Below are positions 1 to 64,000 of a stretch of DNA of 64,000 bases, piece by piece; position 1 is the stretch's first letter; each line of letters starts with the position of its first letter. This DNA is from Hymenobacter sp. YIM 151858-1. Its GTDB lineage: Bacteria; Bacteroidota; Bacteroidia; Cytophagales; Hymenobacteraceae. The stretch is taken from positions 4,216,001-4,280,000 of the forward strand of contig NZ_CP110136.1 of NCBI RefSeq assembly GCF_025979705.1. Direction: 5' to 3'. The position numbers and the translations under genes are program-made. The notes below the pieces were generated by a model. The model did no database searches. It was not told the origin of the DNA and saw only the letters and a list, made by a program, of their open reading frames with translations.

Positions 1-3000
1 GCCGCCCGCCTGGCCGCGCAAGTGGTGCGCCACTACCGTGCTTCCGCCGAAACCGAGGCCGCCCGCCTTCAGCAAACCACCCTGCGCGACCTAGGCCCGC
101 TGGCCACGCCCGCCGATGCCCCGGGCCAGCAGCTGCGCCCCACGCTCTACGACTTGCTGGCCCACCGCGCCATCGAGGCCCTCCGCGACGACGAGCTGTA
201 CCTCACCCGGCCCGCCGAGCAGTTTCGCTTTACCGATGCTCGCCTGCTGGCCCCGGCCGAGGCGTTTGCCCAGCTGCCCCTAGGTGCCCCGGCCGCCGAC
301 TCGCTCAATGGGCCCCTGCACGCCCTGCGCCTGTGGCAACAGCTCACGGCTTTTCGGCTGCGCGATGCCCAAAACCCGGCTGCCCTGGCCGATGCGGAGC
401 GCCTACGCCTGGCCTTCGTGCATGAGAAAGCCGCCTTCGCCAACAAAACCGCGGCCTACACCGCCGCCCTGCGCCGCGCCCAGCATCGCTACGATGCCTT
501 GCCCGCCTGGGCCGATTTTCAGGCCGAGCTTGCGGAACAGGCCCAGCGCCAAAAGCGCCTCCCCGAAGCCCTGGAGCTGGCGCGGGCGGCCGTGCGGCGC
601 TACCCCAAATCGGTAGGTGCGGCGCGGGCCCAGGGCATCATCAACGAGCTGGAGCGGCCCGAGCTGCAGGTACGTACCGCCGAGGTAGCGCTGCCCAACC
701 AGGCCATGCTGCTGAGCGTGCGCTACCGCAACCTGCGGCAGGTGTACGGCTTTGCCTGGAAGCTGCCCGCCGCGGCCCTGCTGCGCGAGCAGCTGGGCCA
801 GCGCGATGCCGAAATTCCGAAAGCCTACGCCAGGCGCCTGGGAGCCAAGCCCGCCGCCACCTGGACGATGGCCCTGCCCGGCCCCGCCGATTACCGCGCG
901 CACCGCGCCGAGGTAGCCGGGCCAAAACTACCGGCCGGGCACTACCTGGTGTTGTTGAGCACCGCCAACGAACGGCCTGCCCAGGAGCGCGAAAACGTAG
1001 CCACCGCCTATGCGTTCGTGTCGGTAAGTGAGCTGGGCGAAGTGCACCGCGCTGCCCCCGCCAGCGGCACCGACCTCTGGACGCTCGACCGCCGCACCGG
1101 CCAGCCGCTGGCGGGTGTGGGCGTGCAGCTGTGGTACCAGGAGTATACCAACGGCAAAGAGCGGCACCGCGCCGGCCCCGTGCTGCAAAGCAGCGCCGAG
1201 GGCTTTTTGAACGTGCCGCCCGACAACGAACGCCGTGCTTATCAGCAAGCCCTGCTGCTGCGCCGCGGTGCCGACTCGCTGGTGGTGCAAACCAACCTAG
1301 GCAACAACCGCGCCTTCCCCAACCGCAACCCCGCCCAGGAGCAGCGCCCGCAGGCGTTCCTTTACACCGACCGCGCCATTTACCGCCCCGGCCAAACGCT
1401 TTACTTCAAAGGCATCGTAGCCCAAAAACAAAACGGCCGCAGCCAGGTGCTGCAAAACACCCAAGTGCAAGTGCGCCTGCTCGATGTGAACGGCCAGCCG
1501 GTGCAGGAGTTCAGCTTTACCACCTCCGACTACGGCAGCTTTCACGGCTCCGCGGTGCTGCCCACCGGCTTGCTCAACGGGCAAATGCAGCTGCAGGTAC
1601 GTAGCAAATTCTTCAGCGAAGCGCAGGACCTAGGGCAGGCGTTTATTTCGGTGGAGGATTACAAGCGCCCCACGTTCTTCGTCGCGCTCGATCCGGTAAA
1701 AGGCACGCCCAAGCTCGGCGATACGCTCTCGGTGCGGGGCACGGCCACAGCCTACGCCGGCCCGGCCGTGGATGGCGCCACGGTGCAATACCGCGTGGTA
1801 CGCCGTACGGTGTGGCCCATGTTTGCGTGGGCTGAGCTGGATTTCGGCTTTGGCGGTCCGGGCATCGAGCGCCCATACTTCCCGAACCGCGGAGGCGAGC
1901 AGCAAATTGCCACAGGTACCGTCACCACCGATGCGCAGGGCCGCTTCCGGGTAAGCTTCACGGCTACCCCGCCCGACGATGCCGCCAACGACGACACGCC
2001 CGACGACGAGGACCAAGACGACTACCGCCCGCCCGGCCCGTGGCGCCCCAGCTACGTGTTCGAGGTAACGGCCGATGTAACCGACCCCAACGGCGAAACG
2101 CGCTCCGCCGAGCGCGGCGTTACCCTAGGTGGGCAGCCGCTCAATCTTGCCCTGAGCGGCCCACGTCAGGTAAATCAGCAGCAGATTGGTGATGCGTTTG
2201 TGCTGCGCAGTCAGAACGCCACCGGCGAGGCCGTGCCCGCTACCGGCACTCTGCGCCTCTACCGCCTCACGCCGCCGGCGCGCGTGCTGCGCCCGCGCTT
2301 GTGGCAACGCCCCGATCAGCCTGGCCTCAGCCGCGAACAGCACCAGCAGCTGTTCCCGCTCGATGCCTGGCTCAGCGAAGACGACCCCGACAAGTGGCCG
2401 CGCACCGCGGTAGGCGAGTGGCGCTTCGATACCGGCCAGCGCACCGGGCTGCCGGAGGTTGCCAAAGCCCTAGGTCCTCAAACGCCGGGTGCGTACCTGC
2501 TCGAGGCCAACACCACTACCGGCTCCGACACCGCCCGCACCCGCCTGGGCTTCACGCTGTATAACCCCACCGCGCAGCAGTTGCCGTTGCCCGTGCCGCA
2601 GTGGCTTACCGCCTTGCGCGATACCGTGGCGCCGGGCCAGGCCGCGCAGGTGCTCATTGGCTCGGGCTTTGAGGCGGTGCAAGCGCGCTTGGAGGTGGAA
2701 AGCCAGGGCCAGCTGGTGCGCGCCGAGTGGCTGACGCTGCGCCGCGAGCAGCGCCTCATTGCTTTGCCCACCACGGCCGCCAACGCCGGGCCCATGCACG
2801 TGCGGCTGATGTTTGTGCACGCCGGACGCTTCTATCAGCAGGAAGCCACCGTGCAAGTAGCCGAGCCCGAGCGGCCGTTGCAGCTTGCCATCAGCACCTT
2901 TCGCGACAAGCTGCAACCGGGCCAGAAGGAAACCTGGCGCGTCACCATTCGCAACAGCCAAAACCAGCCAGCCGCGGCCGAGCTGCTGGCCTCGCTCTAC

Positions 3001-5817
3001 GATCAGTCGCTCGATTACTTCCGCCCGCACGCCTTTGCAAAGCCCGTGTTGCCGCAGCCTTATTTCGGGCAGCGTTTTGCGTGGAGCGGGGCAGGGTTTT
3101 GGGCGGATAATTGGCCGTTGCTGATTGCCCGGTTTGCTGGCGAAGCCACGGGCCGGCAGCAATACCTGTACCCCGATTTGCGAACCACGCTGTGGCAATG
3201 GCAGCGCGTTGGGAAACCCGGGGAAATTTTGCGGCCCAGAAGCATGGCCGACCGGCAGTTATCGGAAGTAGTGGTAACCGGCTACGGCGGTGGCCGCAAC
3301 GTGCGCATCCGGGGTGCCAGCACCATGCAGGCTGCCCCAATGGCGGCCAGCGCCCAAAGCAGCGATGCAATGGTAATGGTCGAGGAAGTTGTGGAACACA
3401 AAGCCAAGGGTGCCGTGTCCGAAGTCAAAAGAACTCCGCGTGACCTCTCCACCGTACCCGTACGTTCCGACTTCCGCGAAACGGCCCTGTGGGCGCCCGC
3501 CGTGCGCACCAACGACAAAGGCGAAGTAGTGCTGGAGTTTCAGATGCCTGAAGCCGTGACGCGCTGGCAGCTGCTCACGCTGGCGCACACGCCCGATTTG
3601 CAAACCGGCATGCTGGCGCGGCAGCTCGTCACGCAAAAGCAGCTGATGGTAACGCCCAACGCGCCGCGGTTCTTCCGCGAAGGCGACCAGCTGCGCCTCA
3701 CCGCCAAAATCAGCAACCTCACCGGCAAAGCCCTAGGTGGCACGGCCCAGCTGCTGCTGCTGGATGCTCGCACCAACCAGCCCATCGACAAGCAACTGCT
3801 GCGCGGCAAAGCCCAGGAGAAATTTAAGGTAGCGGCCAACCAAAGCACCACGGTAGGGTGGGAGCTGAGCATTCCGGCCGGGCTTGAGGCCGTAACCTAC
3901 CGCGTGGTAGCGCAAGCCAAAAACTACTCCGATGGCGAGGAAAACACCCTGCCCGTGCTGCCCAACCGCCTGCTCGTTACCGAGGCGCTGCCCCTTACCG
4001 TGCGCGGCAATTCGGTGCGCGCGTTTGAGCTGCGCAAGCTGACGAGCACCACCTCGGCCACGCGCCAGAATCAAAGCCTCACGCTGGAGCTGACGAGCAA
4101 CCCCGCCTGGTACGCCGTGCAAAGCTTGCCCTACCTGATGGAGTACCCCTACGAGTGCTCCGAGCAGGTATTCTCGCGCCTCTATGCCAACACGCTTGCG
4201 GCGCGCATTGTGCAGCAAAACCCGCGCATCCGGCCCGTGCTGGAAGAGTGGAAGCGCGCTGCCGCCAGCGGCGACAAGAACGCGTTGCGCTCCAAACTCG
4301 AGCAAAACCAGGAGCTGAAGGCCTTGCTGCTGCAGGAAACCCCGTGGGTGCGCGAAGGGCAGTCGGACACGGAGCGCATGCGTCGCCTGGCCGAGCTGTT
4401 CGACGAGGCCCGCCTGCAGGCCGAAACCCAGCGCGCTGCCCAAAAGCTGCAGGAGCTGCAAAGCCCCAGCGGTGCCTTCCCGTGGTTTAAGCAAATGCCC
4501 GACAACCGCTACATCACGCAGGTGGTAGTGGCGGGCTTCGGCCGCCTGCGCCGCCTGGGCGCTTTTGATGCCCAGCAAGATGCCCAAACCGCCGATGTGC
4601 TCCTCCGCGCCGTGGCTTACCTCGACCGCCAGCTGGCCGCCGATTACGCCCAGCTGCGCCGCCAAAAAGGCCTCAAGCTCACCGACGACCACTTAGGCGA
4701 CGCCACGCTGCACGCGCTCTACGCCCGCTCGTTTTGGGCCACTGAGCTGCCCGTGCCCGCCGAGGCCAAACCAGCTTACGACTACTACCGCGAGCAAACC
4801 GCCAAGTACTGGCCCAAGCGCAACCGCTACCTGCAAGGCTTTGCCGCCGTGGTGCTGCACCGCAACGGCCAGGCCAAACCCGCCCGCGAAGTGCTGGAGG
4901 CGCTGCGCCAAAACGCCCTCCGCTCCGACGAACTCGGCATGTATTGGAAGGACGTGCAGCCGGGCTTCTACTGGCAGCAGGCGCCCACCGAAACCCAGGC
5001 GCAGCTAATCGAGGCCTTCAGCGAAGTAGCCCCGGCGGATCAGCAGTCGGTAGAGGAAATGAAGCTCTGGCTGCTGGCGCACAAGCGCACCCACAACTGG
5101 GAAAGCACCCGCGCCACCGCCGATGCCTGCTACGCTTTGTTGCTGCAAGGCGGGCGCAACTGGCTCGAGCCCGCGCAACCGTTGCAGGTTTCCCTAGGTG
5201 CCCAGGCCATCAACACCAGCCAAGGGGCCGAGGCCGGCACCGGCTACCTCAAGCGCAGCTACCCAGCTGCCGAGGTAAAGCCGACCATGGGCAAAGTGCG
5301 CGTGCACAAAACCGATGCGGGCGTGGCTTGGGGCGCGCTGTACTGGCAGTACTTCGAGCAGCTCGATAAGATTACGCAGGCCGACAAAGCGCCCATCACG
5401 CTCACGCGCCAGCTCTTCCGCGAAAATCCTAGCAACAACGGCCCCGTGCTTACGCCCCTGCAAGCTGCTGCGCCGCTGCGGGTGGGCGAGGTGCTGGTGG
5501 TGCGCCTGGTGCTGAAAACCGACCGCGAGCTGGAGTTTGTGCACCTGAAAGACACGCGCGCCGCCGGCCTCGAGCTGATAAGCCAAACCTCGGGCTACCG
5601 CTATCAGCAGGGCCTCGGTTACTACGAAAGCCCGCGCGACGCCGCTACCAACTTCTTCATGGATGTACTGCCCCGCGGCACGCACGTGTTCGAGTACCGC
5701 CTGCGCGCGGCCCAGGCCGGCGACTTTTCGTCGGGCATCAGCCAGGTGCAGTGCCTCTACGCGCCCGAGTTCACCAGCCACTCGGCCGGGCAGCGGCTGC
5801 GCATCGGGCCGCAGTAG
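1..5817 (+). CDS. Alpha-2-macroglobulin family protein, 5' end outside window
   Basis: The frame is open from base 1, so the start lies upstream and at least 1938 residues are present. The middle holds macroglobulin-type beta domains. Bases 4156-4167 encode Cys-Ser-Glu-Gln, the CxEQ thioester motif, in an alpha-helical thioester-domain context. The thioester traps attacking proteases by covalent bonding, and bacterial relatives act in the periplasm or on the outer membrane as protease traps. Bases 3259-3318 carry an unusual insertion reading LSEVVVTGYGGG followed by VRIRGAS, which resembles the TonB-box/plug start of SusC-type receptors. It lies just before the domain beginning FRETALWAP. No PBP1C partner is visible because the upstream region is missing. 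Seven CCTAGG words lie in the gene. The family call is secure; the target is unknown. Confidence 0.93.
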   Translation, partial: AARLAAQVVRHYRASAETEAARLQQTTLRDLGPLATPADAPGQQLRPTLYDLLAHRAIEALRDDELYLTRPAEQFRFTDARLLAPAEAFAQLPLGAPAADSLNGPLHALRLWQQLTAFRLRDAQNPAALADAERLRLAFVHEKAAFANKTAAYTAALRRAQHRYDALPAWADFQAELAEQAQRQKRLPEALELARAAVRRYPKSVGAARAQGIINELERPELQVRTAEVALPNQAMLLSVRYRNLRQVYGFAWKLPAAALLREQLGQRDAEIPKAYARRLGAKPAATWTMALPGPADYRAHRAEVAGPKLPAGHYLVLLSTANERPAQERENVATAYAFVSVSELGEVHRAAPASGTDLWTLDRRTGQPLAGVGVQLWYQEYTNGKERHRAGPVLQSSAEGFLNVPPDNERRAYQQALLLRRGADSLVVQTNLGNNRAFPNRNPAQEQRPQAFLYTDRAIYRPGQTLYFKGIVAQKQNGRSQVLQNTQVQVRLLDVNGQPVQEFSFTTSDYGSFHGSAVLPTGLLNGQMQLQVRSKFFSEAQDLGQAFISVEDYKRPTFFVALDPVKGTPKLGDTLSVRGTATAYAGPAVDGATVQYRVVRRTVWPMFAWAELDFGFGGPGIERPYFPNRGGEQQIATGTVTTDAQGRFRVSFTATPPDDAANDDTPDDEDQDDYRPPGPWRPSYVFEVTADVTDPNGETRSAERGVTLGGQPLNLALSGPRQVNQQQIGDAFVLRSQNATGEAVPATGTLRLYRLTPPARVLRPRLWQRPDQPGLSREQHQQLFPLDAWLSEDDPDKWPRTAVGEWRFDTGQRTGLPEVAKALGPQTPGAYLLEANTTTGSDTARTRLGFTLYNPTAQQLPLPVPQWLTALRDTVAPGQAAQVLIGSGFEAVQARLEVESQGQLVRAEWLTLRREQRLIALPTTAANAGPMHVRLMFVHAGRFYQQEATVQVAEPERPLQLAISTFRDKLQPGQKETWRVTIRNSQNQPAAAELLASLYDQSLDYFRPHAFAKPVLPQPYFGQRFAWSGAGFWADNWPLLIARFAGEATGRQQYLYPDLRTTLWQWQRVGKPGEILRPRSMADRQLSEVVVTGYGGGRNVRIRGASTMQAAPMAASAQSSDAMVMVEEVVEHKAKGAVSEVKRTPRDLSTVPVRSDFRETALWAPAVRTNDKGEVVLEFQMPEAVTRWQLLTLAHTPDLQTGMLARQLVTQKQLMVTPNAPRFFREGDQLRLTAKISNLTGKALGGTAQLLLLDARTNQPIDKQLLRGKAQEKFKVAANQSTTVGWELSIPAGLEAVTYRVVAQAKNYSDGEENTLPVLPNRLLVTEALPLTVRGNSVRAFELRKLTSTTSATRQNQSLTLELTSNPAWYAVQSLPYLMEYPYECSEQVFSRLYANTLAARIVQQNPRIRPVLEEWKRAAASGDKNALRSKLEQNQELKALLLQETPWVREGQSDTERMRRLAELFDEARLQAETQRAAQKLQELQSPSGAFPWFKQMPDNRYITQVVVAGFGRLRRLGAFDAQQDAQTADVLLRAVAYLDRQLAADYAQLRRQKGLKLTDDHLGDATLHALYARSFWATELPVPAEAKPAYDYYREQTAKYWPKRNRYLQGFAAVVLHRNGQAKPAREVLEALRQNALRSDELGMYWKDVQPGFYWQQAPTETQAQLIEAFSEVAPADQQSVEEMKLWLLAHKRTHNWESTRATADACYALLLQGGRNWLEPAQPLQVSLGAQAINTSQGAEAGTGYLKRSYPAAEVKPTMGKVRVHKTDAGVAWGALYWQYFEQLDKITQADKAPITLTRQLFRENPSNNGPVLTPLQAAAPLRVGEVLVVRLVLKTDRELEFVHLKDTRAAGLELISQTSGYRYQQGLGYYESPRDAATNFFMDVLPRGTHVFEYRLRAAQAGDFSSGISQVQCLYAPEFTSHSAGQRLRIGPQ

Positions 5818-5827
5818 TTGAGCACCT

Positions 5828-5945
5828 AGGGCTTTTCGTTGCTCCGGACCGGAGTTTGGAATCTGGTTGAGGTATTCGGCGTGCACGTCTGCGCAGCCTG
5901 TCTGCCCCAGGTTCCAAACTGCGGCCCGACGCAAGGAAAAGCCCT
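5828..5945. repeat. Long imperfect inverted repeat, MITE-like
   Basis: Arms at 5828-5866 and 5907-5945 match at 33 of 39 positions when one is reverse-complemented, with a 40-nt spacer. The left arm begins inside a CCTAGGG word. It lies just after the alpha-2-macroglobulin stop codon. It could act as a terminator-like structure or be a non-autonomous mobile element. No second copy was seen in this window. Confidence 0.6.
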
Positions 5946-6730: not shown

Positions 6731-6761
6731 GTGGCAAGTGCCCGGCGGGCGGCACCTAGGG

Positions 6762-8476: not shown

Positions 8477-8512
8477 CCACGGGCGGGCGCACCTAGGTGC
8501 GCCCGCCCGTGG
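8477..8512 (-). terminator. Perfect palindrome terminator with CCTAGG centre
   Basis: Two 18-nt arms (8477-8494 and 8495-8512) form a perfect 36-bp palindrome with no spacer, and the centre is ACCTAGGT. It follows the M36 protease gene on the minus strand. It is GC-rich with little T-run, so it may work as a structural or bidirectional element. Confidence 0.7.
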
Positions 8513-8539: not shown

Positions 8540-11500
8540 TTAGTCGCGCAGCTCCATCCGGATAACCTTGCTTTGCGTGCCCGCTACGAGGCGCACAATG
8601 TAAAGGCCGCCGCGCAGCTTCTCGCGCACAAACTCGTGGCGGTACTGCTGGCCCACGCGGGCTTCGCCTTCGGCCAGCACGCGCACCACGCGGCCCTGCA
8701 TGTCAATCACCTCCAACCGGAACGGCCCGTTTTGGGGCACCTCAAACCACAGCGTGGTGCGGCTGTCGGCGGGGTTGGGGGCAGCGCTCAGCATGGCGGC
8801 GCTGGTGGGGGCGGCTGCCGGGGCCTGGGCCAGCTCGGTGCCGCACGTGCCCAGCTTGTCGCCGTGGGCCAGGTGGTCGGTGGCACCTAGGGCATCCACG
8901 CACAGGGTGCGGCCGTTGTGGCACACCTGCACTTTGTTGTTCTTGTTGCCGCAGCGCATATCCAGCACCGTAATGGTTACCTCGGCGGTTTCCACGCACT
9001 GGTTTTTGTCGGTGGCCGTTACCGTAAAGGTGTAGGTGCCGGCCTGCGTGGGCGTAAACACCGTTTGGGCCTCGTTGGGAGTGCTCAGGCCCGTAGCCGG
9101 CGCCCAGCGGTACTGCTCGTAGGCGGTGCTGCGGGCAAGCAGCGTTACGCTCTGCGGGCCGTAGCCCAGCACAATGGTGGTGGCGGGCAGGCCGGTACGC
9201 TCGGCCGAGTAGGCCGGAATCACGTCGAGCGTGGGCGCCACGCAGGCGTACATGGGCGGCAGATCAAAAGCCTCCACCTGATCGAGGCGGCTGGTGCTCA
9301 GGCCCTGCTTGGCGCTGAAGCCCAGGCCGCGGCGGGCAAACACCTGCCAGATCAGCTTCTGGTTTTTGCCGCCGTAGCGCAGCTGGTCGGCTTTCAGGAT
9401 GGCGTCGCGGGCATCCACGAAGCCCGGGCTGCACGGTTGCAGCTTCAGGCCGTCAATCACCAGGTACATGGCCATGTTGTTGCCGCCGGTGCCGGTGTGC
9501 AGGTTGGGGTCGTAGCCGTACTTATCCACCAGGGCCCAGGTCATGTCCCAGATCATGGTTGCCCACACAAAGCCCACGCCGTGCGGCTGCGAGAGGGCCG
9601 GGTTGTTGGTGGCGGCGTAGGTGTAGTTGTTGATGGCGAAATCGGTGCTGTACGGGGCCGGCCGGATGCCGCGGCCCGTGGTGGGCTGGCCTTGGGCGTA
9701 GGTGCCAATGCCGCGCACCTTGCTGCCTTTGTCGCCGGGCTTCATGGTCAGCATCAGGCCAAACCAGTCGCTCCAGCCCTCGCCGGCCTGCTCGGCGTTG
9801 TTGAGGCAGCTCGAGGTAAGGCGGCCGCCCGTCAGGCGCGTCGAAATGCCGTGGCCGTACTCGTGGGCGATAATGCCGTTGTCGAAGTCGCCGTCGATTT
9901 CGGGGCCCGAGCCGGCGTTTTTCAGCGCAATGCGGGTTTCGGCGCCCAGGTCGAGCAAGGCGCGCAACGCGGCGCCGTCTTCCTGGCTGATCATTACGGC
10001 CGGCACCGTTACCGGCGCCACCGGCGAGCCGCCCATCACGATGGGCGCGCCCGGGGCGTTGTTAATCACGATTACGGCCGTGGCACCGGCTTGCTGTGCG
10101 TTCAGCACCTTGGTGGCAAAGTCGCAGGAGCCGCGGTACACCACCGCAAAGTTGCCGGCTATGGCGCCGGCGTTGCTCAGGGCGGTGCAGCCTTGCTCGC
10201 TGGTGCCGCTGGCGGTGGCCACCAGCACTGCCTTGCCCTCGAGCGGCGTGGCCGTAAGGGGCTTGCTGAAGGCGGCCTCCACGGCCGGGTACGTAGCCGC
10301 GGCGCGGGCCGGGGCCGTTATCCGGAACATCTCCCGGTCGGGGATGCCGCTCCACAGGTACATCTGCATGCGCGGCCGGAACCCATCGATGGGCGTGGCG
10401 AAGTTGGCGTTGTTGCGGGTGGTAGCAATGTTGCGGCTATCCTGGGCCTCGGCGCGCACGTCGTCGTTGGCGCCGGGTGCGCCGGTATAGTTCGTCACCT
10501 GGAAGTTGCCGCTGGCCTCGTCGAACCCGTAGCGCTGCCACACGTCGTGCATCATGTTGCTCAGGTAGAACAAGTTGGTGATGGCCGCGTCGCGGTAGGT
10601 TACGGGCTGCTTGGTTAAGTCAACGGGGAAGTCGAACAAGAGCGCAGCGCCGCCATCGGGGCTGTAGTTGATGGCGCCGTTGTTGTTGTTGGTGGGGTCC
10701 TCGTAGGCGTGCACGTTGTTGCCCCGCGTAGTGGTAAACTCGGGCCCGGCTGCGCCGTTGGTGTCGTGCCAGCCGAAGGGCGAGGCCACGGCATCGGCAG
10801 TGGTGCCGCTCACGTACTCGCGCGGGCCGTGGCTGGGGCTTTCGGCGGGCAGGGCATACACGTTGTAGGCGTTGCTGGCCGGTGCCGCGTAGGGCGCTGG
10901 TGCCACGGCGGCCTGCTGGGCAAAGGGGGCCAGCAGCGGGTGCGCATCGCCCAGCGCCACGCCGCCCGGGCCGTGGTTATCAAACTCGCAGTGGGTTACC
11001 AGGTTGTTTTTATCGAGCACCTCGCCGGTGCTGGCATCCAGCCTGATTTCCCACCAGTTCAGGGCATTCAGCTCGTAAATCGATACCTCCCAGGCCAGGC
11101 GCAGGCTGCCATCGGCGAGGGGTTGGTACACCAGCTTGGCCGTAATGGGCTCGAGCGAAATGCCACCGGTGCCAAACACGGTGCTGCGGTCGGGCTCGGT
11201 GCTGCGGCTGCGCGCCGCTACCGGCCCTTTGGGGCTAAGCCCTAGGTGCCGGGCGGCCGCCGCCACGGCGGCATCGGCCGTGAGCGTGGCCTTGCTCACC
11301 TTGGCGCGGCGGCCGAGGTTGTTGTAGAAGCGGTTGGCCACGTGCACCACCTCGTCGGTACGGTTGGTGTTTACCGTGCTAATGGCGTTGTGAATCTCGA
11401 CGCCGCGGTACCGCTGCTGCACGTACAAGTGGCGCATGCCGTTGTGCTTGCTCACGGTTTCGCTGCTCAGCACCAGGCTGCTGAGGTCGTCGTCGGCTAG

Positions 11501-11659
11501 CTGCAACGATTTTTGCTGCTGCCGAAGTTGCTGGGCCACGCGCGCGGGCACGTCGTGGGTGCGGGCCTCGGGTCGGGTTTGCGCAAAACCGGCAGCGCCA
11601 GCCAGCAGCAGTGCCGAAAATAGCAGCGGCCGCCCTAGGGTAAGTACATGGTTTGGCAT
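8540..11659 (-). CDS. M36 (fungalysin-type) metalloprotease with PA domain and T9SS tail
   Basis: A 1039-residue secreted protease. Order: signal peptide ending near AGFAQ; FTP-like propeptide to about 250; M36 catalytic domain carrying zinc motif HEYGH at 599-603 and the third ligand in EGWSDW (Glu627); a protease-associated (PA) insert at about 455-590 before the zinc motif; a PKD/Ig-like domain near 790-870; a Cys/His module with CHNGRTLCVDALGA near 880-915; and a C-terminal Por-type sorting domain (NPADSRTTLWFEV to the end). The tail marks export by the type IX system and attachment to or release from the outer membrane. Its role is degrading extracellular protein. The upstream 100 bp is AT-rich, but no clean promoter pair was found. 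Confidence 0.94.
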   Translation of the reverse strand: MPNHVLTLGRPLLFSALLLAGAAGFAQTRPEARTHDVPARVAQQLRQQQKSLQLADDDLSSLVLSSETVSKHNGMRHLYVQQRYRGVEIHNAISTVNTNRTDEVVHVANRFYNNLGRRAKVSKATLTADAAVAAAARHLGLSPKGPVAARSRSTEPDRSTVFGTGGISLEPITAKLVYQPLADGSLRLAWEVSIYELNALNWWEIRLDASTGEVLDKNNLVTHCEFDNHGPGGVALGDAHPLLAPFAQQAAVAPAPYAAPASNAYNVYALPAESPSHGPREYVSGTTADAVASPFGWHDTNGAAGPEFTTTRGNNVHAYEDPTNNNNGAINYSPDGGAALLFDFPVDLTKQPVTYRDAAITNLFYLSNMMHDVWQRYGFDEASGNFQVTNYTGAPGANDDVRAEAQDSRNIATTRNNANFATPIDGFRPRMQMYLWSGIPDREMFRITAPARAAATYPAVEAAFSKPLTATPLEGKAVLVATASGTSEQGCTALSNAGAIAGNFAVVYRGSCDFATKVLNAQQAGATAVIVINNAPGAPIVMGGSPVAPVTVPAVMISQEDGAALRALLDLGAETRIALKNAGSGPEIDGDFDNGIIAHEYGHGISTRLTGGRLTSSCLNNAEQAGEGWSDWFGLMLTMKPGDKGSKVRGIGTYAQGQPTTGRGIRPAPYSTDFAINNYTYAATNNPALSQPHGVGFVWATMIWDMTWALVDKYGYDPNLHTGTGGNNMAMYLVIDGLKLQPCSPGFVDARDAILKADQLRYGGKNQKLIWQVFARRGLGFSAKQGLSTSRLDQVEAFDLPPMYACVAPTLDVIPAYSAERTGLPATTIVLGYGPQSVTLLARSTAYEQYRWAPATGLSTPNEAQTVFTPTQAGTYTFTVTATDKNQCVETAEVTITVLDMRCGNKNNKVQVCHNGRTLCVDALGATDHLAHGDKLGTCGTELAQAPAAAPTSAAMLSAAPNPADSRTTLWFEVPQNGPFRLEVIDMQGRVVRVLAEGEARVGQQYRHEFVREKLRGGLYIVRLVAGTQSKVIRMELRD

Positions 11660-11903
11660 AGAATAGTAGGTAAAGTGAGTATTGATGAGGTAATATATTT
11701 GTATTTATATAATATGTCATATAATGTTATTTATAATCATATGTTCTCTGAATTGTGCTAAGTGCCAGTGCCACTGCTTTTACCATGCCCAGCACCTAGG
11801 GGCGCAGCGCGATAAGCGCCACCACGCCGCCGCAGCGCTGGTTTTTAAGCAGGTGGCCCAAGGCGCAGCACGCCGCGCGACCTAGGCCAGCGCCCAACAC
11901 ACA
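11660..11903. other. Intergenic stretch, AT-rich promoter region
   Basis: 11660-11760 is strongly AT-rich and lies upstream of the minus-strand M36 gene. It should hold that gene's promoter, though I could not find a paired TTG/TANNTTTG on the correct strand. Two CCTAGG words are at 11795 and 11881. No gene is seen. Confidence 0.5.
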
Positions 11904-13379: not shown

Positions 13380-13549
13380 TGCCCCATAATTATGCCTAGC
13401 CACCTAGGCGCCCCCAACTGCCAACTTTGGCGCAGCGGTTGCGGCCAGCCTTGCAGCACGGGTAGCAGATGGGTTCGCACAGACGAAGCATGAAATGCAA
13501 TTAATTCTTGCTTCGATTACTATATTGCTTGCATTCTATATTATTAGGT

Positions 13550-15646: not shown

Positions 15647-15754
15647 CCAGGGAATAGTAAATGAGGTAATGCTGCCTCGCTGAATAATATAATTATGTAA
15701 CTACTTAAATTAAATGATAGCGCTTTGCATCACATGATTTAGCGAAGGCGTTGC

Positions 15755-51894: not shown

Positions 51895-52006
51895 GTCATC
51901 CTGAGGCGCTAGCCGAAGGACCTTCTCACGCAAGAACGACCTAGGGTTAGGCAGTTACTATCCGACGTGGTAAGGTCCTTCGCTGTGCTCAGGATGACAA
52001 ACGGCG
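51895..52006. repeat. Dispersed inverted-repeat element, copy 1
   Basis: GTCATCCTGAG (51895-51905) pairs with CTCAGGATGAC (51988-51998), and CGAAGGACCTT (51914-51924) with AAGGTCCTTCG (51972-51982). Its right end TGCTCAGGATGACAAACGGC and G, AGTTACTATCC and AACGACCTAGGG all recur in the element at 58975-59316, so it is one repeat family. Confidence 0.78.
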
Positions 52007-52639: not shown

Positions 52640-53878
52640 TTAGCGGCCCTCGGGCACGTACTGCAACACGCTGAGCTGGTCTTCGCGCAGCACGTCGTTG
52701 GCGAGGTCTTGCAGCTCTGGGGAGGTTACCTGCCGAATGCGGTCGAAGATTTCGTTGAGCGACTCGACGCGGCCTAGGTCGAGGGTGCTCTTGCCCAGCA
52801 GCTGCATCATGCCGCCGTTGCTTTCTTCGGCCATGGCTAGTTGGCCCATCAGCTGCTCTTTGGCCATGTGCAGCTGCGCGGTGGTCAGGGGCTTTTCGCG
52901 CAGCAGGCGCAACTCCCTCATTACCAACTGGGTGGTGCGCTCCAGGCGGGCTTTTTCGGTGGCGAAGTAAATGCCGAACAGGCCCGTATCGGTGTAGGGC
53001 GCGTAGTTGGCATCGATGCTGTACACGAAGCCGTACTTCTCGCGCACGGCCAGGTTCAGGCGCGAGTTCATGCCCGGCCCACCCAAAATGTTGGTGAGCA
53101 TGAAGAAGGGCAGGCGGCGCGCATCGGGCAGCGCATAGGCCGGGCAGCCAATAAGCGAGTGGGCCTGCGTGATGGGCTTGTGCTCGGTTTGGTGGTTGGG
53201 CTTGTACTCGGCAAAGGGCTGGCGCGGGCGGGCACCCAACTTGGCGGGCAGCGGTGCGAGGTACTTATCGGCCAGGCGTTTTACTTGCTTAAAGGGCAGG
53301 TTGCTAACGGAGCTGAACACCAGCTGATCGGTGCGCATGTTCTCCTGCAGAAACCGGAAAAAGTCTTGCTGCTGAAAGCCCGACACGCTCTCGCGCGTGC
53401 CGAGGATGTTGTGACCTAGGGCATGCTGGCCGTACACCACGCCGTCGAAATCGTCGATGATGGCGTCTTCGGGCGTGTCGACGTACATCGACATTTCCTC
53501 CAGAATTACGCCGCGCTCCTTCTCGATTTCCTTTACCGGAAACACCGAGTTAAAGGTCAAATCCGTCAGCAGCTCAAACGCGCGCTCGAAGTGCGTGCTC
53601 AGCAACGAGGCGTAAAAGCAGATTTTCTCCTTGGTCGTGTAGGCGTTCAGCTCGCCGCCCACGGCCTCCAGGCGGTTGAGGATGTGAATGGAGCGGCGCT
53701 TTTCGGTGCCTTTGAAAGCCATGTGCTCCCAAAAGTGCGCAAGGCCGTACTGCTCGGGACGTTCGTCGCGCGAGCCAATATCGAGTAGGAAACCGCAGTG
53801 GGCTACTTTGGTGTGCGGCACTTGCTTGTGCAGCACCCGAATGCCGTTGGGTAACTCGTAAAAATCGTATTCGAGCAT
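52640..53878 (-). CDS. M16 family zinc metallopeptidase
   Basis: A 412-residue processing-peptidase-like protein. The inverted zinc motif HFWEH is at 48-52, with the distal Glu near 127 (GVILEEMSMYVD). The C-terminal half carries the second, non-catalytic M16 domain with FFMLTNILGGPGMNSRLN and REKYGFVYSIDANY. No signal peptide is seen, so it is probably cytoplasmic or peripheral. Length is typical of the short single-chain M16B type that works as a dimer. The flanking genes are unrelated. Confidence 0.92.
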   Translation of the reverse strand: MLEYDFYELPNGIRVLHKQVPHTKVAHCGFLLDIGSRDERPEQYGLAHFWEHMAFKGTEKRRSIHILNRLEAVGGELNAYTTKEKICFYASLLSTHFERAFELLTDLTFNSVFPVKEIEKERGVILEEMSMYVDTPEDAIIDDFDGVVYGQHALGHNILGTRESVSGFQQQDFFRFLQENMRTDQLVFSSVSNLPFKQVKRLADKYLAPLPAKLGARPRQPFAEYKPNHQTEHKPITQAHSLIGCPAYALPDARRLPFFMLTNILGGPGMNSRLNLAVREKYGFVYSIDANYAPYTDTGLFGIYFATEKARLERTTQLVMRELRLLREKPLTTAQLHMAKEQLMGQLAMAEESNGGMMQLLGKSTLDLGRVESLNEIFDRIRQVTSPELQDLANDVLREDQLSVLQYVPEGR

Positions 53879-54041: not shown

Positions 54042-55088
54042 CTAGTGGGCCGCTGCCACCGGTGCTGCCCAGGCCTCGGCTTCGGCCAGTACACCTAGGA
54101 GCTGCTGGGTTTCGATGCCGTGGGCGCAGCGGAAATGGCCGAGCGGGCACTTGCGGTAGCCGTGCAGGCCGCAGGGCTTGCACTCCAGCTCCTGGGCAAT
54201 TTCGACCACGCGGGCAAACGTACTCAGCGGCCCGAACCCGAAGTAGGGCACCGTGGAGCAGAACACCGCGCAGGTAGGCGCATCCACGGCCGAGGCCAGG
54301 TGTTGCGGGGCCGAATCGTTGACGTAGTTGAGTACGGCCCCGCGCATAAGCGCCGCCGAAGCCAGCAACGACAGCTTGCCCGCCAGGTTTACTACGCGCG
54401 GCCGCCCAGCTTTTTCGAGTAGCTCCTGGCACTCGGCCGCATCGGGCGGGCCGCCTAGCAGGTACACGGTGTAGTGCGCCGGCAAGGCCCGCAGCAGCTT
54501 AGCCCATTGCTCCTGCGGAAATTGCTTGGTATACCACACCGAGGTGGGCGCAATGCAGATGTACGGGCCCGCCTCGGCGTAGGGCGCGGCGGCAGCATCG
54601 TCGGCGGGGGTGGGGTAGAGGCGGGGGCGGGTAAGCGGGGCCGGTATGCCGGGCTCGAGCAGGCTCAGGTTGCGGCTTACCTCGTGCACGCCCGGCGCAA
54701 AGCCGTGGGGCAGGCGGTGCGTAAACAAAAAGCTCAGGGGGTTTTTGTCGAAGCCGATGCGCTGCTCAGCCCCCGAAAAAGCCGTAAGAAACCCCGTGGA
54801 GGCAAACCGCTGCAAGTTGATAACCCGCTCGTAGCGGGTGGCACGCACTTGCCCGAGCAGGCGCCACAAGCCGCCGTATTTCTCCTTTTTCTTGTCCCAT
54901 ACCAGCACTTGGCGCACGTGCGGGTGGCCTTTCAGCAAGCCTTCGTTGCCGCGGCGCACCAGCACGTCCACGGGCGTGTCGGGCTCGGTTTCGCGCAGGC
55001 GCTCGAGCAGGGCTGTAGCCAAAATCACGTCGCCGATGAAGGCGGTTTGGATCAGCAGAATGGCTCGGTTGGCAGCGGGGCTTTGCAT
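54042..55088 (-). CDS. Glycosyltransferase family 9 (heptosyltransferase-like)
   Basis: A 348-residue GT-B protein. ILLIQTAFIGDVILATALLE is the family N-terminus, and the C-terminal half carries YICIAPTSVWYTKQFP, VYLLGGPPDAAECQELLEK and NDSAPQHLASAV for nucleotide-sugar binding. Family 9 enzymes such as WaaC/WaaF/WaaQ add ADP-heptose to lipopolysaccharide. Close to the end is a Cys cluster (CKPCGLHGYRKCPLGHFRC) typical of this subgroup. The ATG at 55088 is 17 bases downstream of a perfect Bacteroidota promoter, fixing the start; a longer frame upstream is noncoding. Confidence 0.91.
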   Translation of the reverse strand: MQSPAANRAILLIQTAFIGDVILATALLERLRETEPDTPVDVLVRRGNEGLLKGHPHVRQVLVWDKKKEKYGGLWRLLGQVRATRYERVINLQRFASTGFLTAFSGAEQRIGFDKNPLSFLFTHRLPHGFAPGVHEVSRNLSLLEPGIPAPLTRPRLYPTPADDAAAAPYAEAGPYICIAPTSVWYTKQFPQEQWAKLLRALPAHYTVYLLGGPPDAAECQELLEKAGRPRVVNLAGKLSLLASAALMRGAVLNYVNDSAPQHLASAVDAPTCAVFCSTVPYFGFGPLSTFARVVEIAQELECKPCGLHGYRKCPLGHFRCAHGIETQQLLGVLAEAEAWAAPVAAAH

Positions 55089-55135: not shown

Positions 55136-55240
55136 CCGTTATTGTACAAATTGGTGCACGCACGCCTGGGGCGGCCCTGCGCGCTCCGGCAGTATAACAA
55201 GCAAGCCGGCACAATTAGCTCCCGGTTGCGGGCCGCGGCC

Positions 55241-55711
55241 CTAGGTGGGCAACGGCGCCCGGCTGGCACGGGCACCGCCCGGCCGCAGCAAGTAGTACGC
55301 GGCCCCCCAACAGGCCGCGGCACCTAGGGCCAACAAGGCACCGAGCGCGGGCCTGGCGGCGTGCAGCGCGTAGGCAATAGCCAGGGCTGCGGCCAAGCCT
55401 GCGCCTTCGGCGCAGAGCAGCACGGCGGCCAGCCAGCGCAGCCACGGCCCGCCCCACAACCGGTTCAGGAAAAAACACACGCCACCGAGGGCCGGCAGCA
55501 GCAAGCCCATGGCCCAAAGGTACTTGCCTGCCTGGGCCGGTTGGCCGGCCTCGGTGGCCCACAGTTGCGCCTGGGCCAGCCAGTGCAGGCACCACAGCGC
55601 CACGGCCAGCGCTGCCAGCAAGCCCGCCGCTGCGCCGGCCCTAGGTAGTGGGCGGGCAGGCAGGGCAGGTGGGGTGGCAGGCACCAAATCGGGAGTGGCT
55701 AAATCATGCAT
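55241..55711 (-). CDS. Small four-helix membrane protein, unknown
   Basis: 156 residues with about four hydrophobic helices (near 25-45, 65-80, 90-115 and 120-140) and short charged loops; very rich in Ala, Leu, Gly and Trp. No conserved motif is recognised. The stop codon TAG is contained in a CCTAGG word (55240-55245). It lies upstream of the GT9 gene on the same strand and could be co-transcribed, but the GT9 promoter lies between them. Function unknown. Confidence 0.6.
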   Translation of the reverse strand: MHDLATPDLVPATPPALPARPLPRAGAAAGLLAALAVALWCLHWLAQAQLWATEAGQPAQAGKYLWAMGLLLPALGGVCFFLNRLWGGPWLRWLAAVLLCAEGAGLAAALAIAYALHAARPALGALLALGAAACWGAAYYLLRPGGARASRAPLPT

Positions 55712-57194: not shown

Positions 57195-57419
57195 TTTTTT
57201 TATCGGCGCAGGTAAACGAGGGGTGCGGCCGGCCCAATGTTGCCGTCAGTTGTTGGTAATGAGGCAATAGTATCACCTAGGGCCACTGCCGACAAACAAG
57301 AATGTGCCCGAAAACACAACTAAGTGAGGCTTTGAAAAGTATAGTGTTGCGTTAATGTATGGGATGCAATTGCGTATTTCGCGCCCCAAACTGCTTTTCC
57401 TCACTTAAGCGTTTCGCAC

Positions 57420-58898: not shown

Positions 58899-58919
58899 TC
58901 CCTAGGTGATGATTCGCTA

Positions 58920-58974: not shown

Positions 58975-59316
58975 TTGTCAGCCTGAGCCCAGCGAAAGGC
59001 CTTGTCTCGTGAGAACCTCACCCCCCGGCCCCCTCTCCCATAGAGAGAGGGAGCCGGGCGACCTAGGGGAAGGCCGTCATGTCGAGCTTGCCGACACATC
59101 TCGCGTGCTGACGTTCGATACTAACTGCTCCCCTCTCTATGGGAAAGGGGCTGGTGGGTGAGGTCCAACTTGAGAAGGTCCTTCCTTCATCAGGATGACA
59201 GTTACTATCCAACGTCAGCACGCGAGATGTCTCGGCAAGCTCGACATGACAACGACCTAGGGAAAGTCGTGCGGGTGTGAGCAGGTTCTGCATTTTGCTC
59301 AGGATGACAAACGGCG
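58975..59316. repeat. Mosaic of interlocked inverted repeats, copy 2 of the dispersed family
   Basis: Arms at 59076-59126 and 59200-59250 match at 48 of 51 positions after reverse complement. A second pair (about 59016-59051 and 59126-59164) overlaps them, with CCCATAGAGAG as the common core. The right end repeats a 21-base string also seen at 51986-52006 and other words of the first copy. There is no coding sequence, and two CCTAGG words lie inside. Confidence 0.8.
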
Positions 59317-59379: not shown

Positions 59380-59398
59380 GGGTTTGTGGCTACCTAGG

Positions 59399-60025: not shown

Positions 60026-61510
60026 TTACTCGAAAGCCACCACGTTCAGGAAAAACACCTCGCGGCTGCTGCCGTGCTCGGGGCGCACACGCTGGTAGCC
60101 GTAGGCCAGAAAGCGGCTGCCGTACCAGGGCAAAATGCCGGTGCGGTTGGTAGAAACCGATTTTTCGCGCAAGCCTTGGGTGTTGGTGGCCAGCGGCACG
60201 TGCAGGTCGTTGGGCGAGGGCGTGGTGCGGTCCACAATCTTGTACCGAATCTTCTCCTCATCCACGTACGCCAGGGCCAGGCGGCGGCCATCGGGGAGGG
60301 GGCGGGCCCGCACGGTTTCGGTGAGGGTAGGCCGCTCGGCGTTTCTCAGCACGAAGGTGTTGTCCCAGAGCAGGGTGCCGTTGCGGTCGAAGCCGCACAC
60401 GATGGCGTGCGACGAGCGGTAGCCATCAAAGCTGCGGTTGGGCGCAAACAGCACGAAGCCGTACGAATCGTAGCGGTAGCGGGGGTAATAGGCCTCGGCT
60501 ATCAGCACGTACCCATCGCCGAAGGGCAGCATGCGGTGCGTAAGGATGCGGTAGCGCAGGCGCAGGTCGCGGCCGGCGGCGCGGCGCTCGGCGCTGCGGG
60601 CGCGCAGGCGCTCGGCCCGGCGCGGCTTCATGAAATCGAAAAAGTGCTTAAGCACCGTGAAATCGTAGAAGCGCAGCGGCGGCCGAGCCGTGGGCCCGCC
60701 CGATAAGTCGGTAGCAAACAGGCCCTGCGAGTACCTGGGGTCGCGGAGGGTGTAGGTGCCCGTGAGCAGGCGGCGGGTGCTGTCGCCGGGGCTGAGCTCG
60801 GCCGTAACCAGCCCGCGGCCGCTTTCGGCCTGAATAAACTGCGAGGCCAGCAGCTGCCCGCGCGCCGAAAGCTGCTTTACCTGCAGGCGCGAGAGGCGGC
60901 CGTTGGTTTGGGTGAGCACGTAGCCCACGCGCTCGGTAGCCGAGTCGGCCAGAAAGGTGAGCTGCGTGGGCAGCGGCTCGTACACCGAGGGCAGCAGCCG
61001 AAACTCCTCGTGGTCCATATCCACGTGCATCACGGTGAGGTGCTGCGCCACCTGCACCGTAGCGAACAGCTTGCCGTTGAGCACCTCCAGGTCGTAGAGG
61101 TCGTTTACGATTTTGGTGTCGAAGGCAAAGCCCTGGGTTTCGCCGGTGCGCAAATCGAGCCGAAACACCTGAAACCGCGCCCCTAGGTAGCCCGACTGAA
61201 ACAGCGCGTAGGCATAGGGCGCCTCGGCGCAGGCAAACCGCAGGTCGAACTCGTTGGGCACGTCTACCTTCGCCTCCCGCGTCAGCTGCAAGTCGCGGTT
61301 GAAGTACAGGAAGCGGTAATCGACTTTGAACGAGCTGCTGGGCTCGTTTTCGACGAAGAGCACCACCGTGCTGTCGGGCAAGGGCACCACCTGCACGTCG
61401 CTGTAGCTGGGCTCAAGCTTGAGCTCCAGCCGTTTGGGCTGCGTAGGTGCGGGCTGGGCCCACAGGCGCAGCGGCAGCCACAGCAGCAACAACATCAAAG
61501 CGCGAGGCAT
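60026..61510 (-). CDS. Secreted beta-rich protein of unknown function
   Basis: 494 residues with a signal peptide (MPRALMLLLLWLPLRLWAQP). The body is a chain of beta-strands with many Tyr, Arg and Asp, suggestive of a beta-propeller or barrel-like fold (RFACAEAPYAYALFQSGYL and DGYVLIAEAYYPRYRYDSY). Near residues 295-320 sits an Arg/Ala-rich charged stretch (RRAERLRARSAERRAAGRD). No catalytic motif stands out. It is the first gene of the pair with the DUF4252 lipoprotein, so both may work at the envelope. Confidence 0.72.
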   Translation of the reverse strand: MPRALMLLLLWLPLRLWAQPAPTQPKRLELKLEPSYSDVQVVPLPDSTVVLFVENEPSSSFKVDYRFLYFNRDLQLTREAKVDVPNEFDLRFACAEAPYAYALFQSGYLGARFQVFRLDLRTGETQGFAFDTKIVNDLYDLEVLNGKLFATVQVAQHLTVMHVDMDHEEFRLLPSVYEPLPTQLTFLADSATERVGYVLTQTNGRLSRLQVKQLSARGQLLASQFIQAESGRGLVTAELSPGDSTRRLLTGTYTLRDPRYSQGLFATDLSGGPTARPPLRFYDFTVLKHFFDFMKPRRAERLRARSAERRAAGRDLRLRYRILTHRMLPFGDGYVLIAEAYYPRYRYDSYGFVLFAPNRSFDGYRSSHAIVCGFDRNGTLLWDNTFVLRNAERPTLTETVRARPLPDGRRLALAYVDEEKIRYKIVDRTTPSPNDLHVPLATNTQGLREKSVSTNRTGILPWYGSRFLAYGYQRVRPEHGSSREVFFLNVVAFE

Positions 61511-61592
61511 AAGCGGAGGAGTAGGAGTAGGACTGGGGCGGCTTCCTTAAAAATACAACAAAGCCTGGCCAAAACACATACCCCTAGGTGGG

Positions 61593-62645: not shown

Positions 62646-64000
62646 TTGGAAAACCGCGCCCTCATTCGCGCCTTTCGGCTGATGGCCCAGCTGCTGGAGC
62701 TGCACGACGAAAACCCCTTTAAGGTGCGCGCCTACGAAAGCGCCGCCGCTGCCCTGGAGCGCCTCGAGCAGCCCCTGGCCTCGCTCGACCCAAGCGAGTT
62801 TACCACCGTGGCGGGCCTGGGTAAAGGTGCCGCTGTGGCGGCGCAGGAGCTGTTGCGCACCGGCACCTTCCCCGAGCTGGCGCGCCTGCAGGCCGCCACA
62901 CCGCCCGGCGTTATCAGCATGCTGAGCATCAAAGGCTTCGGGCCGAAAAAAATCCGGGTGCTGTGGCGCGAGCTGGGCGTCGAAACCATTGATGCCCTGC
63001 GCGAAGCCGCCGAGCAAAACCGCGTGGCTGCGCTCAAAGGCTTTGGGGCCAAAACCCAGGATGCCATTTTGCAGGCGTTGGAGTTTACGGCCCAAAGCCA
63101 GGGCAAGCTGCTCATCAGCCAGGGCCAGGCCCTAGGTGCCCAGCTGGTGGCGCTGCTGCAGGAGGCCGTGCGCACCGAGCAAGTAGCCGTGGCCGGCGAG
63201 GTGCGCCGCGCCCTGCCGGTGGTTGAAACCGTGCGGGTAGTGGTGGGCACCAACCAGGCCTGGGCCGTGCACGAGGCCCTAGGTGCCGTGGAGGGCTTAG
63301 CGGCCGATGAGGCCAACTCGGGCCCGTTTGTGTGGCGCGGCACGGCGCAGGAGTCGGGCGTGAAGGTGGAGGTGCAGATTGCTACCCCCGAGAATTACAC
63401 CAACTGCCTGTTTCTGCAAACTGGCTCCGATGCTCACCTCACGGCGCCCCTAGGTGCCAAAGCACCGGCGGCCACGCTGCGCCAGCTGGTGCGCCAAACC
63501 AAGTTTTTTAGCGAAGCGGCCATTTACGAAAAGGCTGGCCTGCAGTACATCGAGCCCGAAATGCGCGAAGGCGCCGGCGAGATTGAAGAGGCCGCCGCGC
63601 ACAAGCTGCCCACGCTGCTCACCGAGGCCGATTTGCGCGGCTCTTTGCACAACCACAGCACCTACTCCGACGGCGCCCACTCCTTGCGCCAGATGGCCGA
63701 GTTCCTGCGCGACAACGGCTACCAGTACCTCGGCATCTGCGACCATTCGCGCGCCGCGCACTACGCCAACGGCCTCAGCATCGAGCGGGTGGAGCAGCAG
63801 CACCAGGAGATTGAGCGCCTCAACCGCGAGCTGGCGCCCTTCCGCATCTTTAAAGGCATCGAGTCGGACATCCTGTCCGATGGCTCGCTCGATTACCCCG
63901 ACGACGTGCTGGCTTCCTTCGACTTTGTGGTGGCCTCGGTGCACTCGGGGCTGAAGATGGACAAGGAGCGCGCCACCGAGCGCCTGCTGCGCGCCATTGC
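62646..64000 (+). CDS. PolX-like protein (HhH, dead polymerase beta, PHP), 3' end outside window
   Basis: 451 codons are present and the end is cut by the window. A TTG at 62646 is taken as the start (LENRALIRAFRLMAQLLEL). The N-terminal HhH domain has the motif SIKGFGPKKI. The polymerase-X domain has lost its metal-binding aspartates: the usual GDxD site reads VETVRVVVGT, GSxRR reads GEVRR, and the third Asp is Glu in KVEVQI. The C-terminal PHP domain is well conserved (SLHNHSTYSDGAHSLRQMA and ICDHSRAAHYANGL), so a nuclease or phosphoesterase role remains likely. Three CCTAGG words lie in the gene. Confidence 0.87.
   Translation, partial: MENRALIRAFRLMAQLLELHDENPFKVRAYESAAAALERLEQPLASLDPSEFTTVAGLGKGAAVAAQELLRTGTFPELARLQAATPPGVISMLSIKGFGPKKIRVLWRELGVETIDALREAAEQNRVAALKGFGAKTQDAILQALEFTAQSQGKLLISQGQALGAQLVALLQEAVRTEQVAVAGEVRRALPVVETVRVVVGTNQAWAVHEALGAVEGLAADEANSGPFVWRGTAQESGVKVEVQIATPENYTNCLFLQTGSDAHLTAPLGAKAPAATLRQLVRQTKFFSEAAIYEKAGLQYIEPEMREGAGEIEEAAAHKLPTLLTEADLRGSLHNHSTYSDGAHSLRQMAEFLRDNGYQYLGICDHSRAAHYANGLSIERVEQQHQEIERLNRELAPFRIFKGIESDILSDGSLDYPDDVLASFDFVVASVHSGLKMDKERATERLLRAI

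Follow-up and report, generated by a model that had tools for sequence, protein, structure and literature searches.

The 64,000-nucleotide stretch analyzed here (positions 4,216,001 to 4,280,000 of contig NZ_CP110136.1; called the window below) comes from the 4.62-Mb genome of Hymenobacter sp. YIM 151858-1 (G000, in which it is C1:4216001-4280000) and is dotted throughout with a short iterated word, ACCTAGG, found on both strands in genes and intergenic regions. The palindromic core CCTAGG occurs 78 times, where base composition predicts 21.3, and 74 of these sites carry the asymmetric 7-mer at least once (42 as ACCTAGG and 34 as CCTAGGT, with two sites having it on both strands), the other four having it on neither. 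The form ACCTAGGG occurs 29 and 21 times on the two strands, 50 in all, against an order-2 Markov expectation of 0.97 for both strands. A preliminary description made from the letters of this DNA had given about 78 copies of CCTAGG, 74 with ACCTAGG and 50 with ACCTAGGG, and a prediction from composition of about 20; our recount gave identical figures for the words, and the computed expectation agrees. All other NCTAGN words combined make up only 40 of the 118 CTAG in the window, so the CTAG excess belongs to CCTAGG and is not shared equally by other CTAG words. By a simple gene caller, which makes 80% of the window coding, 35 of the 78 sites are intergenic, close to the 33 or so first estimated, 3 are partial, and 40 are coding. 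The sites are as follows.

89..95, plus strand, ACCTAGG word
279..285, minus strand, ACCTAGG word
1295..1301, plus strand, ACCTAGG word
1628..1634, plus strand, ACCTAGG word
2124..2130, minus strand, ACCTAGG word
2469..2475, minus strand, ACCTAGG word
3732..3738, minus strand, ACCTAGG word
5193..5199, minus strand, ACCTAGG word
5824..5830, plus strand, ACCTAGG word
6754..6760, plus strand, ACCTAGG word
8491..8498, no strand, ACCTAGGT, word on both strands
8885..8891, plus strand, ACCTAGG word
11241..11247, minus strand, ACCTAGG word
11634..11639, no strand, CCTAGG without flanking A
11794..11800, plus strand, ACCTAGG word
11880..11886, plus strand, ACCTAGG word
12258..12264, minus strand, ACCTAGG word
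13402..13408, plus strand, ACCTAGG word
14245..14250, no strand, CCTAGG without flanking A
14662..14668, minus strand, ACCTAGG word
15267..15273, plus strand, ACCTAGG word
15622..17300, no strand, word-free AT-rich segment (GC 0.44) with acyltransferase gene, aligning to neither G005 nor G007
19780..19786, plus strand, ACCTAGG word
19846..19851, no strand, CCTAGG without flanking A
19887..19893, plus strand, ACCTAGG word
20534..20540, plus strand, ACCTAGG word
20958..20964, minus strand, ACCTAGG word
22814..22820, plus strand, ACCTAGG word
24858..24864, plus strand, ACCTAGG word
25037..25043, minus strand, ACCTAGG word; its TAG ends ORF 24166-25041
26138..26144, plus strand, ACCTAGG word
26543..26549, minus strand, ACCTAGG word
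26701..26707, plus strand, ACCTAGG word
29063..29069, minus strand, ACCTAGG word
29251..29257, minus strand, ACCTAGG word
29439..29445, plus strand, ACCTAGG word
30918..30924, plus strand, ACCTAGG word
31621..31627, plus strand, ACCTAGG word
32620..32626, plus strand, ACCTAGG word
34316..34322, plus strand, ACCTAGG word
34869..34874, no strand, CCTAGG without flanking A
35166..35172, minus strand, ACCTAGG word
35437..35443, minus strand, ACCTAGG word
36410..36416, plus strand, ACCTAGG word
37598..37604, minus strand, ACCTAGG word
38930..38936, plus strand, ACCTAGG word
39136..39142, plus strand, ACCTAGG word
39147..39153, minus strand, ACCTAGG word
40313..40319, minus strand, ACCTAGG word
40478..40485, no strand, ACCTAGGT, word on both strands
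41743..41749, plus strand, ACCTAGG word in dnaE
42388..42394, plus strand, ACCTAGG word in dnaE
44956..44962, minus strand, ACCTAGG word
45553..45559, minus strand, ACCTAGG word
47229..47235, plus strand, ACCTAGG word
47407..47413, minus strand, ACCTAGG word
48025..48031, plus strand, ACCTAGG word
48398..48404, plus strand, ACCTAGG word
49607..49613, plus strand, ACCTAGG word
50027..50033, plus strand, ACCTAGG word
50787..50793, minus strand, ACCTAGG word
51075..51081, minus strand, ACCTAGG word
51939..51945, plus strand, ACCTAGG word
52773..52779, minus strand, ACCTAGG word
53414..53420, plus strand, ACCTAGG word
54093..54099, plus strand, ACCTAGG word
55240..55246, minus strand, ACCTAGG word
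55322..55328, plus strand, ACCTAGG word
55640..55646, minus strand, ACCTAGG word
57275..57281, plus strand, ACCTAGG word
58901..58907, minus strand, ACCTAGG word
59061..59067, plus strand, ACCTAGG word
59255..59261, plus strand, ACCTAGG word
59392..59398, plus strand, ACCTAGG word
61182..61188, minus strand, ACCTAGG word
61583..61589, minus strand, ACCTAGG word
63131..63137, minus strand, ACCTAGG word
63278..63284, minus strand, ACCTAGG word
63449..63455, minus strand, ACCTAGG word

The enrichment extends over the whole genome, in which ACCTAGGG occurs 3106 times (1555 + 1551 on the two strands) and its reversed form, counted genome-wide alongside it as a control, 0 + 2 times. Two further Hymenobacter genomes, G005 (H. 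oligotrophus, with a 100% match over 20 kb to a 42,169-bp plasmid) and G007, have 2980 and 2808 copies, and the other five of the eight genomes compared in the genus (G001 to G004 and G006) have 8 to 20 each; the maximum among 50 further genomes from the same family and order is 98 (G048). We refer to the first three as bearers and to the five as word-poor congeners. ACCTAGG has a density of about 1.2 per kb, both strands counted, in chromosome samples of the three bearers (stretch L147, all N, was left out), and no comparable word was found in the 40 to 60 kb examined of each word-poor congener. The bearers are grouped on the basis of 88% nucleotide identity in alignable parts, against about 79% to the word-poor G003, and of a median protein divergence over 102 genes of 5.2% among themselves, against 20.9% to the outgroup; by DnaE, the four isolates nearest to G000 are Hymenobacter strains. 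A tree of DnaE alone does not resolve the bearers as a single clade (bootstrap support of 44%, 200 trees); we regard one origin of ACCTAGG in the three as likely.

Analysis of the bases around the core revealed that the unit is indeed longer than the palindrome and asymmetric, as first proposed. Among the CCTAGG sites in 284 kb, 155 have only the left A, 175 only the right T, 7 both, and 17 neither, the last two classes being far below the expectation from independence, and this asymmetry is present separately in the coding and the intergenic DNA of all three bearers. The base 3' of ACCTAGG is G, C, A, or T at frequencies of 0.60, 0.30, 0.07, and 0.02, with T at 0.24 after TAGG elsewhere, clear of any word (a phage-like stretch, L155, is excluded here and from the strand and pair counts and family-word densities); the sequence flanking the word contains little information. 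One-letter variants at positions 2 to 7 have 0.43 to 1.57 times their density in the word-poor congeners (ACCTGGG being low, at 0.59), the exceptions being the decay products ACTTAGG and ACCTAAG, raised to 2.7 and 2.9 times. At position 1, variants show a 9- to 45-fold excess that we attribute to overlap with the reverse word. The polarity and the background level of the variants therefore indicate that recognition is exact and directional, and the unit, polar, exact, and strand balanced, is ACCTAGG with any base but T after it. Dcm-type deamination of CCAGG was rejected as the source, since other NCTAGG words are not raised.

Placement was analyzed in 260 to 264 kb per bearer genome, again with coding and intergenic DNA separated by the simple gene caller. 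The density is 2.46 to 2.77 per kb in intergenic DNA against 0.83 to 1.04 per kb in genes, a 2.7- to 3.0-fold difference. Genic copies had been predicted to force the pair CTA-GGN, and 93 to 94% of the coding copies lie in that frame, with sense and antisense copies nearly equal in number (78/88, 92/108, and 100/112 in the three bearers). CTA makes up 30%, 37%, and 44% of the leucine codons before glycine in G000, G005, and G007, respectively, and 3.6% in G003; outside Leu-Gly pairs its share is 3 to 6%. Few copies (7 or 8 per genome) are found in the 30 bases preceding a start, and 19 or 20 per genome fall within 10 bases after a stop. At about 14880 to 14945 of stretch L090, a hairpin resembling an intrinsic terminator lies between an inverted pair of words.

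Conservation of the sites between species, a check proposed at the outset, proved to be above control in every comparison among the bearers. At 200 to 250 cleanly aligned sites per comparison, sites with gaps or poor flanks being omitted, the word is kept at 64 to 76%, against 53 to 54% for permuted 7-mers; the corresponding figures are 70 to 82% against 38 to 46% for nearby 7-mers in intergenic DNA (34 to 48 sites per comparison) and 61 to 76% against 47 to 49% for neighboring 7-mers in genes. Over positions with a clean three-way alignment, losses to one-letter variants number 65 against 108 expected at an average rate that ignores codon constraint, and gains from variants at positions 2 to 7 number 6 against 3.3 expected, too few to judge. 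Nonconserved sites mostly differ by one mismatch, above all a transition, so point mutation with retention explains most sites. At least three mismatches are found at 8 to 26% of the nonconserved sites against 8 to 9% in permuted words, exceeding the control in five of six comparisons; replacement of blocks with three to five changes at once is not the rule, as the mismatch number is mostly one. Examples of sites with multiple differences in the bearer alignments (200-kb blocks plus the window) are those at 24859 and 47230 of the window. In six of six comparisons, a private word is found less than 200 bp away from lost sites more often than from shared ones; we did not use this as a sign of compensatory turnover, since fast-evolving intergenic DNA could produce private words near lost sites.

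The word is sparse in the samples of plasmid and phage-like DNA. Contigs were called plasmids by size, by TraG and TraM in C2 and C3 of G000, and by the plasmid matches of the samples G000:C3 and G005:C2. Of the 259 kb of plasmid contigs in G000, 100 kb were sampled and have 3 words, and 51 kb of G005 have 0; a 12.5-kb contig of G007 (C4) carries 2, so absence from such contigs is not absolute. Codivergence of the plasmids was set aside as a sign of long residence, since the plasmid samples of G000 and G005 share only patches, at 68 to 85% identity. L155 (G000:C1:1100001-1120000), with genes for an endolysin-type amidase, a DNA repair exonuclease, and a DarB-like protein, has 1 word against a mean of 23 over 26 stretches of 20 kb. 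Methylase matches in the same genome flank it at 1.09 and 1.18 Mb. In the window, the AT-rich acyltransferase island lacks the word, as had been noticed: after the site at 15268 the next CCTAGG is at 19781, a gap whose size alone is not improbable, and the segment at 15622-17300 had no alignment in the compared stretches of G005 or G007. A tRNA-Arg(acg) gene at 17302-17376 borders this private segment and is a possible insertion site. Words are present in short pieces private to G000, with 28 over a total of 16 kb, so unalignable DNA is not word poor as such.

A survey of 12- to 20-kb stretches in five other genera, 24 genomes altogether, with ranked word lists judged by eye, recovered strong iterated words in five of the seven sampled genomes of a sister genus, g3, at about 1 to 4 per kb (stretches L220, L225, L233, L239-L241, L242-L245, L246-L249, L286, and L288). 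These are AAGTATA in G014 (1.57 per kb) and G026 (1.75 per kb); AACTATA in G034 (3.75 per kb, plus AAGTATA at 0.58 per kb); both AAGTATA and AACTATA in G022 (2.17 and 1.39 per kb); and ATATATA in G009 (0.97 per kb). None as strong was found in the sampled stretches of G018 and G030. The g3 words share with ACCTAGG an A at position 1, a T at position 4, and an A at position 5, and like it they avoid T at position 8, where T has a frequency of 0.04 to 0.10 against 0.16 to 0.27 in word-free controls (0.05 against 0.37 in G009; the figures for G026 and G034 come from 21 and 45 copies). The common skeleton ANNTANNV, noticed post hoc and in words that depend on one another, is suggestive; we infer that the g3 words are homologous to ACCTAGG. 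AATATT is strongly overrepresented, at 2.2 per kb in genes and 3.4 per kb between them, in G023 (L234, L250-L252), the only one of seven sampled g4 genomes to have it, and in Adhaeribacter aerolatus (L004). Hymenobacter sp. BT559 (G061, L005), which the DnaE tree places in another clade, has 6779 copies of the weakly polar GCTAGC in 5.1 Mb against 456 to 1230 in seven other Hymenobacter genomes, or 5 to 15 times as many. AATATT and GCTAGC, being less polar, may represent a different phenomenon. In 23.5 kb of Nonlabens tegetincola (L058), CGCGAAAG and overlapping 8-mers occur 12 times on both strands against 0.2 expected.

ACCTAGG is a maintained, exact, and directional chromosomal word, and such words differ between lineages; every step beyond a maintained word is one that we infer. 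The reading that we tentatively favor, with somewhat less than even confidence, treats this unit as a mark by which chromosomal DNA is recognized as self, in the manner of a DNA uptake sequence (DUS). Conspecific DNA bearing the word would be taken up or recombined more readily, alleles gaining the word would spread, and alleles losing it would be replaced. Entry might occur through competence of the kind found in Riemerella, also a member of the Bacteroidota, by means of ComEC, DprA, and ComF together with outer-membrane and surface proteins particular to each lineage; drift in the specificity of a putative receptor between lineages could give rise to dialects. Biased uptake and recombination would explain why the sites are so many, why neither strand is preferred, why permissive positions are occupied, why the plasmid and phage-like samples have so few copies, and why there are dialects. 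The broader proposal of a self-recognition system of the Hymenobacteraceae that operates without type IV pili, with ANNTANNV dialects in which changes in the specificity of the putative receptor rewrite thousands of sites, appears to us doubtful. We know of no earlier uptake-word system in the Bacteroidota, and among the papers that a search confined to open-licence literature brought up, none is by title about this word in the phylum.

Several observations weigh against the uptake reading. One-letter variants of ACCTAGG are not enriched, unlike what is expected from the gradual drive of DUS theory, as given in the accessible part of its exposition (PMC1939737). Pairs of words within 80 bp are depleted: 55.7 are expected, whatever their orientation, and 34 occur, of which 26 are inverted. 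The type IV pilus ATPase PF00437 is above the cut-off in none of 11 genomes, with four weak matches in g3, so a DUS receptor of the known kind would not be expected. The 10 genomes searched for ComEC all have it, word-poor congeners among them. Less clear in its bearing is genic density, which is 0.83 per kb where the DNA aligns to G003 and 0.96 per kb in DNA found only in the trio. A word of any kind that spreads slowly into newly arrived DNA would likewise be sparse in the plasmid and phage-like samples. Those open-licence papers that name both Hymenobacter and natural transformation concern, by title, other subjects.

The alternative that survives best, which we nevertheless consider unlikely, is that the word is the site of a chromosome-wide DNA-binding protein (a nucleoid organizer or a segregation or repair factor) reading A-NN-TA-NN-V, with selection keeping about one site per kb. 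The exactness of the word, its constraint also between genes, and the few plasmid copies are consistent with such a protein, as are counts per 5 kb that are slightly even (variance/mean, 0.75 to 0.86) and a depletion of close neighbors (gaps below 200 bp, 0.182 observed against 0.227 +/- 0.021 simulated). However, gap lengths are no more even than in simulation (coefficient of variation, 1.09 against 1.02 +/- 0.06), no such protein was found, the word-poor congeners show no comparable word, and selection on thousands of sites would be hard to sustain without drive. To our knowledge, no chromosomal protein has been described as reading A-NN-TA-NN-V.

Distinctly less probable is a site akin to Chi, at which the AddAB recombination nuclease would be restrained and self DNA thereby marked. 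A polar word, exact over 7 to 8 bases, species specific, and depleted in the plasmid and phage-like samples, would suit this role, and an AddB-like PD-(D/E)XK protein (PF12705, the one subunit of AddAB covered by the search) is present in 10 of 10 genomes. Yet congeners share this protein and have no comparable word, and the orientation of the word in G000 shows no clear strand skew, being 334:339 over 26 stretches (heterogeneity p = 0.095), with 52.5% against 40.1% in the best post hoc two-arc split, the origin not being mapped. Outgroup-to-ingroup divergence ratios at least as high as those of AddB and ComEC are found in 57 and 85 of 102 genes, respectively, which makes both proteins unremarkable; the idea that AddB is unusually conserved in the trio was accordingly rejected.

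We give slightly less credence again to a HIP1-like word, made and kept by a cognate DNA methyltransferase together with methyl-directed mismatch repair, despite a density of about 1 per kb, a palindromic core, and species-specific alternates like the alternate HIPs in the accessible part of Elhai 2015 (PMC4390886), a part with no mention of CCTAGG. Profile searches found no match to PF01555 in G005, to PF00145 in G005 or G007, to PF02086 in any of the three bearers, or to PF02384 in G007; no one of these four families is matched in all three, the search having been confined to them (PF07669 and other families were not searched). The methylases present show at most short and weak mutual similarity, over 47 to 74 aa, in a comparison from which one PF00145 gene of G000 was left out (L118 and L200 were read in the wrong frame). 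The unit, moreover, is polar, and g3 words such as ATATATA contain no C. At G000:C1:3020053-3022109 (L113, L283), the gene for a short PD-(D/E)XK protein immediately precedes that of a DNA cytosine methylase in the same orientation, and the two may form a restriction-modification pair. Finally, a by-product of mutation or codon bias is very improbable: although 93 to 94% of coding copies share one frame and nonconserved sites mostly differ by one letter, above all by a transition, the variant, placement, codon, and conservation data already contradict it, as CTA is rare outside Leu-Gly, density is higher between genes, one-letter variants are not raised, and loss is slower than expected.

Why iterated words such as HIP1 and the DUS accumulate in genomes has long been asked. 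Because one genus here holds both bearers and nonbearers and its sister genus a series of dialects that includes a two-word genome, the reader of the word can be sought among close relatives. If ACCTAGG is an uptake word, it would provide a sequence code for transformation in the Bacteroidota, and DNA acquired recently would be recognizable by its word density.

Among known systems, Riemerella provides a precedent in the phylum for competence favoring a species' own DNA, and ComEC is present in both cases. In the accessible part of a study of R. anatipestifer, eight genes are essential for transformation, those of ComEC, DprA, ComF, and RecA and four of unknown function; none is annotated there as a pilus ATPase or pilin, and one of the proteins is predicted to be fimbrial (PMC8459023). 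R. columbina prefers its own DNA, and frequent k-mers are listed for Riemerella, with no uptake word established in the part of that work at hand (PMC7965970). HIP1 (GCGATCGC) and the alternate HIPs of cyanobacteria are similar in density, palindromic core, and sporadic, species-specific replacement words, as the preliminary description had suggested; membership in that group fails because the unit here is polar and no methyltransferase family of the four is shared, and the phylum is different. Chi sites of RecBCD/AddAB are likewise polar, exact 7- to 8-mers that are species specific, with an AddB-like protein present here; membership fails for want of a clear strand skew, and AddB-like-bearing congeners have no comparable word. 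The likeness to DUS, also suggested at the start, holds for density and does not extend to membership in the pilus-based DUS and uptake signal sequences (USS) of Neisseriaceae and Pasteurellaceae, which we do not claim because neither a type IV pilus ATPase above the cut-off nor an excess of close inverted pairs is present; the sharp 7-mer lacking enriched near matches and the Bacteroidota host also set it apart. DUS form dialects, accumulate in the core genome, and occur as inverted pairs at terminators, according to the available portion of one account (PMC3630211); in another, GCCTAGGC is tabulated as an example of an underrepresented palindrome (PMC1939737). With DUS and USS the word shares a polar unit at about one per kb on both strands, permissive positions, depletion in mobile-DNA samples, and dialects with a shared core within one family. 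In being polar, having dialects in a sister genus, and being depleted in plasmid and phage-like samples, ACCTAGG thus resembles DUS more closely than HIP1.

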